This document shows, piece after piece, positions 18,767 through 30,804 of a stretch of DNA of 38,160 bases. Numbering within the stretch: the first letter of the stretch is position 1; every line of letters begins with the position of its first letter. The DNA comes from Acidobacteriota bacterium (GTDB lineage: Bacteria > Acidobacteriota > UBA6911). The DNA lies in assembly GCA_016934295.1 (NCBI GenBank), contig JAFGTD010000319.1, positions 1 through 38,160 of the forward strand. The letters run 5' to 3'. Made by a program: the position numbers and the translations under genes. Below the pieces are notes generated by a model. The model had not been told where the DNA came from. It saw only the letters and a list, made by a program, of their open reading frames with translations, and did no database searches.

Positions 18767-18795
18767 TTGACGATTCCGGATAATCGTTTTACGAT
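18767..18795 (+). promoter_or_regulatory. Candidate internal promoter
   Basis: TTGACG (18767-18772) and TACGAT (18790-18795) are 17 bases apart, directly after the stop codon of the CoA-transferase homologue and about 84 bases before the CaiB gene. This gap is one of the few in the run that lacks a GGGAAAC element. Weak pattern evidence. Confidence 0.28.
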
Positions 18796-25655: not shown

Positions 25656-25730
25656 CCGTTTCCCGTTTCCCGTTCCCCGTTTCCGGTTTCCCGTTAAAAG
25701 CATAAAACCAAAACGGGGATCGAGAAACGA
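25656..25730. repeat. GGGAAAC-family inverted repeat, element 6 (left of the four-helix-bundle gene)
   Basis: A long left arm (25656-25696, four GTTTCCCGTT-like words) is followed by the loop AAAGCATAAAACC and a short, decayed right arm (AAAACGGGGATCGAGAAACG). Unlike the other elements, its right arm is much shorter than the left. The four-helix-bundle gene starts 8 bases later. Confidence 0.82.
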
Positions 25731-25737
25731 TATAGAC

Positions 25738-26127
25738 ATGAAAATTGGACACTTTGAAGAAATTGAAGCATGGCAATTGGCAAGAGCGTTAACCCAGCAG
25801 ATTTACAATTTGACGAAAAAGGATAAATCCTCCAGAGATTTCAATTTGAAAAGACAGATTCAGAGCGCAGCAAGTTCAACAATGAATAACATTACTGAGG
25901 GATTCGATTCAGACACCAATGCTGAATTCCTCCGTTTTCTTCGGTATGCAAAACGCTCATGCTCAGAAGTTCAAAGTCAGCTCTATATAGCAATGGATCA
26001 AGAGTATGTTTCAGAGTCTGAGTTTCGTAATACGTACAAACATGCTGGCCGAACCCGCGCAACCATACGCGGTTTTATTAGATATTTGTTATCCTATGAG
26101 CAAAGTTCATCTAAACAACGGAATTGA
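25738..26127 (+). CDS. Four-helix-bundle protein of the bS23 / 23S rRNA intervening-sequence family
   Basis: This 129-residue protein matches the small four-helix-bundle family first seen in 23S rRNA intervening sequences: FEEIEAWQLARALTQQIYNL (helix 1), LKRQIQSAASSTMNNITEGF (helix 2 with the typical N-I-x-E-G), TNAEFLRFLRYAKRSCSEVQ (helix 3) and a C-terminal helix with RTRATIRGFIRYLL. Avd, the accessory protein of diversity-generating retroelements, has the same fold. The biochemical role of stand-alone members is unknown; nucleic-acid binding is suspected. The gene is more AT-rich than its catabolic neighbours and is enclosed by GGGAAAC repeat arms on both sides, so it looks inserted together with them. 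ATG 25738 has no clear ribosome-binding site. Confidence 0.9.
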   Translation: MKIGHFEEIEAWQLARALTQQIYNLTKKDKSSRDFNLKRQIQSAASSTMNNITEGFDSDTNAEFLRFLRYAKRSCSEVQSQLYIAMDQEYVSESEFRNTYKHAGRTRATIRGFIRYLLSYEQSSSKQRN

Positions 26128-26171
26128 CCGTTTTCCGGTGACCTTAACGGGAAACCTGAAACGGGAAACGG
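26128..26171. repeat. GGGAAAC-family repeat, element 7 (right of the four-helix-bundle gene)
   Basis: This begins at the base after the four-helix-bundle stop codon. A short left arm (CCGTTTTCCGGT) is followed by a long right arm at 26146-26171 (AACGGGAAACCTGAAACGGG plus AAACGG), the exact complement of the left-arm words of elements 3 and 5. Element 6 has a long left arm and this one a long right arm, so together they form a single inverted repeat with the gene in its loop. Confidence 0.85.
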
Positions 26172-29749: not shown

Positions 29750-29762
29750 GCAGATACTTTAT

Positions 29763-29844
29763 TTGGAGTGCGGCAGCAAGCTGCCGCCTTTGTTACGATT
29801 TTGTATATCGACGCAAAGGCGCAAGCAAGCTTGCGCACTCCAAA
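29763..29844. repeat. Nested three-stem inverted repeat between mmgE/prpD and the SDR gene
   Basis: An outer stem (TTTGGAGTGCG ... CGCACTCCAAA) encloses two smaller palindromes, CGGCAGCAAGCTGCCG on the left and GCGCAAGCAAGCTTGCGC on the right, with an additional CCTTTG/CAAAGG pairing between them. The shape resembles the paired REP units of other bacteria. A run of A bases follows. It does not share words with the GGGAAAC family. Confidence 0.8.
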
Positions 29845-29885
29845 AAAACCAGCTTTCAATTTTCAATTAGTGAGGAGGCAGTTCG

Positions 29886-30734: not shown

Positions 30735-30804
30735 GGTTTCCCGTTCCGGGTTTCCCGTTTCCCGTTTTTAACTGATGGGGAACGGGGACGGAATCGGGTA
30801 ACGG
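30735..30804. repeat. GGGAAAC-family inverted repeat, element 9
   Basis: The left arm is GGTTTCCCGTTCCGGGTTTC plus CCGTTTCCCGTT, the loop is TTTAACTGA and the right arm (TGGGGAACGGGGACGGAATC plus GGGTAACGG) is the most diverged of the set. Its last bases lead into the GGAGG of the next gene. Confidence 0.83.

Follow-up and report, generated by a model that had tools for sequence, protein, structure and literature searches.

Intervening sequences of 23S rRNA, as found in Coxiella and Leptospira, carry a PF05635 open reading frame (ORF) in the loop between inverted terminal repeats. In the Coxiella element, the S23 ORF is preceded by tandem heptamers (GACAGAT) and the terminal stem measures 28 bp; RNase III processes the element (PMC4990558). 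Tandem heptamers have also been described between protein genes: GGGAATC in Xanthomonas and GGGGATT in Nostoc (PMC4692102), and TAACTGA in Beggiatoaceae and cyanobacteria (PMC4679880). These repeats lie between aligned genes, prefer four units, and place the G-rich strand after a stop codon or antisense before the next start codon, with many inverted pairs in Xanthomonas. MacGregor asked for a protein that binds such repeats (PMC4679880); the S23 gene family is absent from the text of both heptamer papers (PMC4692102, PMC4679880). Two further contexts are known for the four-helix-bundle family, namely Avd, the homologous accessory protein of diversity-generating retroelements (DGR; PMC10053308), and the 23S_rRNA_IVP genes in cas loci, which have been listed as cas-associated (PMC3936711). 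REP/RAYT systems and MITEs likewise consist of short intergenic hairpins in gene-bearing and gene-less forms. In a literature search whose coverage extended neither to preprints nor to most subscription journals, we found no publication that connects this gene family with heptamer hairpins.

We analysed a 38,160-nt stretch of an Acidobacteriota genome (the window), in which a gene of this family lies in the loop of a GGGAAAC repeat, as the first-pass annotation had proposed (Table 1). The ORF matched PF05635 (E = 2e-29, 102 bits; curated cut-off 33.8) and TIGR02436 (E = 5e-28, 97 bits; cut-off 24), and is the sole family member in the 5.45-Mb assembly. Its best arm pair (25670-25697 and 26144-26171) spans 28 nt, is 93% complementary and is separated by 446 nt, and the whole element is sited between the stop codon of one host gene and the start codon of the next. 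The decayed right arm that the annotation had seen in the left block is present and precedes the gene; the left block by itself may therefore have formed a hairpin in the past. The right arm had been placed at the base after the stop codon; it in fact begins 17 nt past the stop, and the word CCGTTTTCCGG intervenes.

Table 1. Features of the window's gene-bearing element and of the hairpins sharing its word.
Feature	Position	Strand	Evidence or remark
Gene-less hairpin, same word as the window gene's arms	12787..12855		fold z -4.2
Gene-less hairpin, same word as the window gene's arms	13644..13712		fold z -2.9
Gene-less hairpin; same slot and same word in G008	20111..20184		fold z -6.2
Gene-less hairpin; same slot occupied in G008 and G009	21673..21751		fold z -6.9
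Gene-less hairpin; left arm exactly complementary to the gene's right arm over 25 nt	23458..23534		fold z -4.8
Left (5') arm, tandem GTTTCCC-type heptamers	25656..25697	+	inverted-repeat pairs
Decayed right-arm-like segment between left arm and gene	25704..25729	+	81% complementary to left arm
Four-helix-bundle gene (bS23-like, PF05635/TIGR02436), 129 aa	25738..26127	+	profile matches; PDB relatives 2gsc, 2rld
Short left-type word CCGTTTTCCGG, immediately 3' of stop codon	26128..26138	+	sequence
Right (3') arm, GGGAAAC-type heptamers	26144..26171	+	ends 6 nt 5' of next start codon (26178)
Gene-less hairpin; same word in G008 slot, different hairpin family in G009 slot	28299..28371		fold z -5.3
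Half element, single arm	30736..30766		repeat search

The annotation's link to the hairpin-bounded 23S rRNA insertions is borne out by the Coxiella element described above. Unlike those insertions, the window copy lies between protein genes (no Rfam match was found within the window, and the gene's neighbours are not 23S rRNA) and its private word recurs in many gene-less copies. It also differs from REP/RAYT systems and MITEs: there is no transposase, the gene sits inside the hairpin and each gene has its own tandem word. Only the four-helix protein lies between the arms, with no transposase, nuclease or polymerase domain (PF05635/TIGR02436 profile searches); in particular there is no Y1 transposase there, and this genome's three Y1_Tnp matches lie on contigs other than the window's. 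Unlike in a DGR, no reverse transcriptase is near the gene, the only RVT_1 gene of the genome being on a different contig, C319. The window repeats are intergenic heptamers of the STRR-like kind, with tandem 7-nt units between genes and many copies per genome, and the published placement of such heptamers fits hairpins between aligned genes.

Seven further elements in the window carry the same word, with about 50 more matching places elsewhere in the genome. Exact complementarity between the gene's right arm and gene-less left arms, also claimed in the annotation, was confirmed over 25 nt for the 23458 copy and 24 nt for the 20111 copy. Predicted RNA folds were far below those of shuffles in five of the six complete gene-less copies tested (z -4.2 to -6.9), and that of the 13644 copy was weaker (z -2.9). 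A separate REP-like hairpin family (GGAGTGCGGCAGCAAGCTGCCGC) occupies window positions 29758-29848.

We surveyed the family for flanking repeats that also occur without the gene, as the first-pass annotation had suggested, and found both. All surveyed genomes were represented by parts, many of them draft assemblies, and genome-wide counts come from searches plus sampled stretches. Nearly all of 17 relatives found by similarity (Desulfobulbaceae, Verrucomicrobia, Chloroflexi, Bacteroidota and others) had inverted tandem repeats on both sides, with differing words (GAACCTT, GCACCAA, AACTGCT and so on). The family was present in 36 of 60 relatives of the window genome, in 1 to 14 copies each, and in 45 of 61 sampled Bacteroidota genomes, with a maximum of 16 copies. 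Arms were scored by local alignment of the left flank against the reverse complement of the right flank, and a score of at least 24 was reached by 64 of 81 family genes, compared with 30 of 617 other genes at the same loci (4.9%). In a wider set that added more phyla and cyanobacterial plasmids, the gene's own flanks were complementary in 94 of 131 distinct genes (72%), against 11 of 216 (5%) when a left flank was paired with the right flank of another family gene in the same genome, 2.9% for flanks paired across genomes and 1.5% for shuffled flanks. Roughly one family gene in four did not pass this test, and several of those inspected had short or direct arms. The family is associated with inverted flanking arms. 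That low-complexity intergenic sequence mimics such arms by chance might be suspected from the abundance of repeats in the window genome; this reading is refuted by the matched controls (same-loci genes, mismatched flanks and gene-free genomes) and is scarcely credible.

The arms have a regular anatomy. A tandem array above the 99% null was found in a flank of 115 of 137 family genes, and with all periods from 5 to 11 allowed, the period was 7 in 129 arms, 8 in 39 and rarely 6 or 9; periods 5, 10 and 11 gave no arm in this array search. The number of units per arm peaked at 4 and 5, and both arms had the same period in 64 of 67 genes. On the coding strand, G-rich left arms (79 cases) far outnumbered C-rich ones (9 cases; P = 4e-15, with some double counting of a few loci); the window copy is among the exceptions. 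In most elements with a gene, the two arms mirrored each other's unit order; the gene-less elements of the window did not show this. Such mirroring was rejected as proof of arm copying, given arm-selection bias and its absence from the window hairpins, as was a tracking of protein similarity by repeat period, which was weak after similar-word pairs were dropped (P from 0.01 to 0.39).

The words are private to genes. Each gene sampled in one genome (G045) had a different word, with matching arms in all but one, and no pair of genes within a genome had a word in common. Words common to different genomes were almost always in the same orientation relative to the gene. Therefore, as each gene is differently worded within a genome and orientation is kept, the words belong to the gene and not to the genome. 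Two family proteins from different phyla, L108 (G031) and L238 (Bacteroidota), are 56% identical and have nearly identical arm words (AGAAGTC).

The arms might act as G-quadruplexes, a role proposed for the Xanthomonas word GGGAATC and the Nostoc word GGGGATT. GGGAAAC, the window's word, is itself G-rich and similar heptamers form quadruplexes in vitro (PMC4692102), but 70 of 90 gene-bearing arms contain neither GGG nor CCC, and four such runs occur in only 6. Quadruplex formation thus fails as a general explanation and we regard it as highly improbable.

Gene-less copies were concentrated in gene-bearing genomes. We searched 20 genomes with the arms of 27 genes: of the ten gene-free genomes, nine gave no match, and each gene-bearing genome gave 11 to 104. 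Among the sites listed, with the gene's own arms excluded, most were in the word's home genome; the main exceptions were G039, where a related gene carries that word, and the window genome, G000, where AGAAGTC repeats occur and no such gene was found. These last are tandem repeats on contigs C2, C176, C114, C214, C53, C141 and C9, and match the arms of a G031 family gene. We also counted 7- or 8-nt tandem arrays independently of the word. The 15 gene-free genomes yielded 3 in 502 kb (0.6 per 100 kb). The 13 gene-bearing genomes yielded 61 in 643 kb, counted only at distances above 1 kb from the nearest family gene (9.5 per 100 kb); contig starts that had not been chosen for the gene contributed 29 of these, in 303 kb. 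This is an approximately 15-fold higher density with the gene (genome-level P = 1.6e-5). The sample was limited: its gene-bearing DNA came mostly from the surroundings of family genes (up to about 10 kb away, with 1 kb masked), and gene-free genomes tended to be smaller.

The elements are polymorphic by insertion. In the window's genus, three genomes (G001, G008 and G009) have both genes flanking the window element adjacent to each other, without the family gene. At that slot, G008 carries a gene-less hairpin with the word ATTCGAG, which is the word of its own resident gene L071, and at the slot equivalent to window position 18767 it carries ATTGACG, the word of resident gene L072. At slots 20111, 21673, 23458 and 28299, G008 has GGGAAAC hairpins as in the window; G009 has some of these, and other slots differ. 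Slots are swapped between species by hairpin families: the 29758-29848 slot holds a GGGAAAC hairpin in G008, and the 28299 slot holds a GGAGTGCGGCAG hairpin in G009. Among three Bacteroidota of about 90% identity, one family element was present in two and absent from the third between the same genes, and a second slot showed replacement of one family gene by another whose arms also differed, which argues that gene and arms travel together. On cyanobacterial plasmids, Picosynechococcus PCC 7003 carries an element at its cas10/cmr3 junction that PCC 7002 lacks, and Nostoc edaphicum carries one (antisense) at its nrdB/nrdA junction that is missing from Calothrix NIES-4105. No target-site duplication was evident at three filled/empty pairs, where spacers were short and diverged; an Anabaena/Dolichospermum cas6/cas4 pair was rejected as a clean junction because its spacer was too different. 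In related Bacteroidota (L274-L276), successive gene junctions are occupied by three to four different family elements in a span of about 6 kb.

These comparisons divide the hypothesis of the first-pass annotation, in which the protein recognises or helps to spread the hairpins and the window gene is the parent of its neighbours. As a statement about the class it is supported, with recognition or spreading by the protein as a putative step: the survey gave the opposite of the outcome that the annotation had named as refuting (no association of the family with flanking repeats), gene-specific inverted heptamer arms occurring far above controls, and the same words occur without the gene. The parenthood of the window copy does not stand: GGGAAAC hairpins also occupy several of these slots in G008 and G009, which lack the gene at the window slot, so the window copy did not give rise to its neighbours. 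GGGAAAC hairpins are retained in these congeners, and a GGGAAAC-flanked gene was not found in them (G008 has five family genes; draft assemblies may miss genes). With GGGAAAC in G008 and AGAAGTC in G000 both present and no matching gene, presence of the gene is not strictly needed.

The same slots bear on whether the hairpins constitute a post-transcriptional regulon, with a TRAP-like RNA-binding regulator reading the words in mRNA hairpins and its own arms autoregulating the gene. Hairpins lie right after stop codons and right before start codons, mostly between genes of the same direction (47 of 69, against a background of 54%), they are predicted to fold strongly as RNA, and there is one word per protein; a translational network was proposed for TAACTGA by MacGregor in 2015 (PMC4679880). 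However, orthologous slots in close relatives hold other words, no hairpin or another gene, unlike conserved regulation, and insertions occur in unrelated operons (cas, nrd), also antisense as in the Nostoc nrd case. We therefore consider a regulon unlikely as the primary explanation, and regulation of host operons through the same putative binding is compatible with a mobile element.

We think it probable that the window copy represents a gene-bearing hairpin insertion element, whose persistence or spread is aided by recognition of its own word by a pentameric four-helix protein, the gene-less copies being derivatives. The unit consists of about four to five tandem 7-nt words as its 5' arm and a complementary arm on the 3' side, with the bS23-like gene forming the loop. 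Arms and gene would move together, and gene-less hairpins of the gene's word would be non-autonomous derivatives. The window protein is homologous to 2gsc over its length (profile match E = 1e-36), and 2rld is a further PDB relative. 2GSC is described as a homopentamer of four-helix bundles with fivefold quaternary structure (PMC4990558; title of Lin 2006 cited there). From this homology, we infer that a homopentameric ring binds the tandem word as a single strand or as a transcript hairpin, with roughly one heptamer per ring subunit. The TRAP ring reads triplet repeats through regularly spaced sites. By analogy, regularly spaced sites on the ring would explain why the period is fixed, why the word is free and why arms have four to five units; ring spacing would set the period at 7 (in some cases 8), and the word would drift with the protein. 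Binding may then help host machinery to copy the hairpin, or to establish it anew, at further intergenic sites. The 23S rRNA intervening sequences would be a special case, in which an element landed in rRNA.

A different division of labour would leave the gene as a passenger, carried along as some other host activity (a Y1/RAYT transposase, a reverse transcriptase or polymerase slippage) spreads the hairpins. The protein has no nuclease or polymerase domain and hairpins occur without a matching gene, both as a passenger would predict. Against this, each gene has a private word within one genome and genome-wide array density depends on the gene. One genome, G047 (95% complete), has seven family matches and many arrays, and had no match to RVT_1 or Y1_Tnp; a reverse transcriptase or Y1 transposase is thus not needed as the mover, and was rejected as such. 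We judge the passenger reading quite improbable. A gene-bearing element that recognises its own word remains our preferred explanation.

Its generalisation is more tentative, and we put it forward as a possibility that may well prove too broad: a class of mobile elements built on a pentameric ring, without nuclease, transposase or reverse transcriptase, in which ring geometry would set a 7- or 8-nt word and the protein surface its letters, and the ring would drive the intergenic spread of hairpins carrying it. Heptamer repeats, gene-less hairpins, rRNA S23 ORFs and 'cas-associated' IVP genes would be faces of this class. Four unconnected observations are joined in this way: heptamer repeats, species-specific intergenic hairpins, multi-copy four-helix genes (up to 16 per genome) and the S23 ORFs of 23S rRNA. 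The data point to mobile hairpin elements as a class that has attracted little notice and may lie behind several puzzling repeats of bacteria. The PF05635 family is a candidate for the repeat-binding protein that MacGregor asked for, giving a testable answer to which protein belongs to the heptamer repeats, with a word predicted per protein. X. campestris encodes a family protein, XCC0516 (2GSC). From the XCC gene name, we take this to be the same strain as the X. campestris with heptamer repeats. Should the word turn out to be set by the protein, the latter would represent a novel type of sequence-programmed nucleic-acid binder.

The IVP genes of cas loci belong to the same family and occupy the same kind of slot (cmr2/cmr3, and near cas4/cas6; PMC3936711). 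Because relatives without the insertion exist, we suggest that they are hairpin insertions, and their CRISPR association may reflect insertion into intergenic slots, which would correct the reading of family genes in cas operons as CRISPR functions. On the cyanobacterial plasmids, family genes (L250, L252 and L256) lie inside type III-B and type I-D cas operons.
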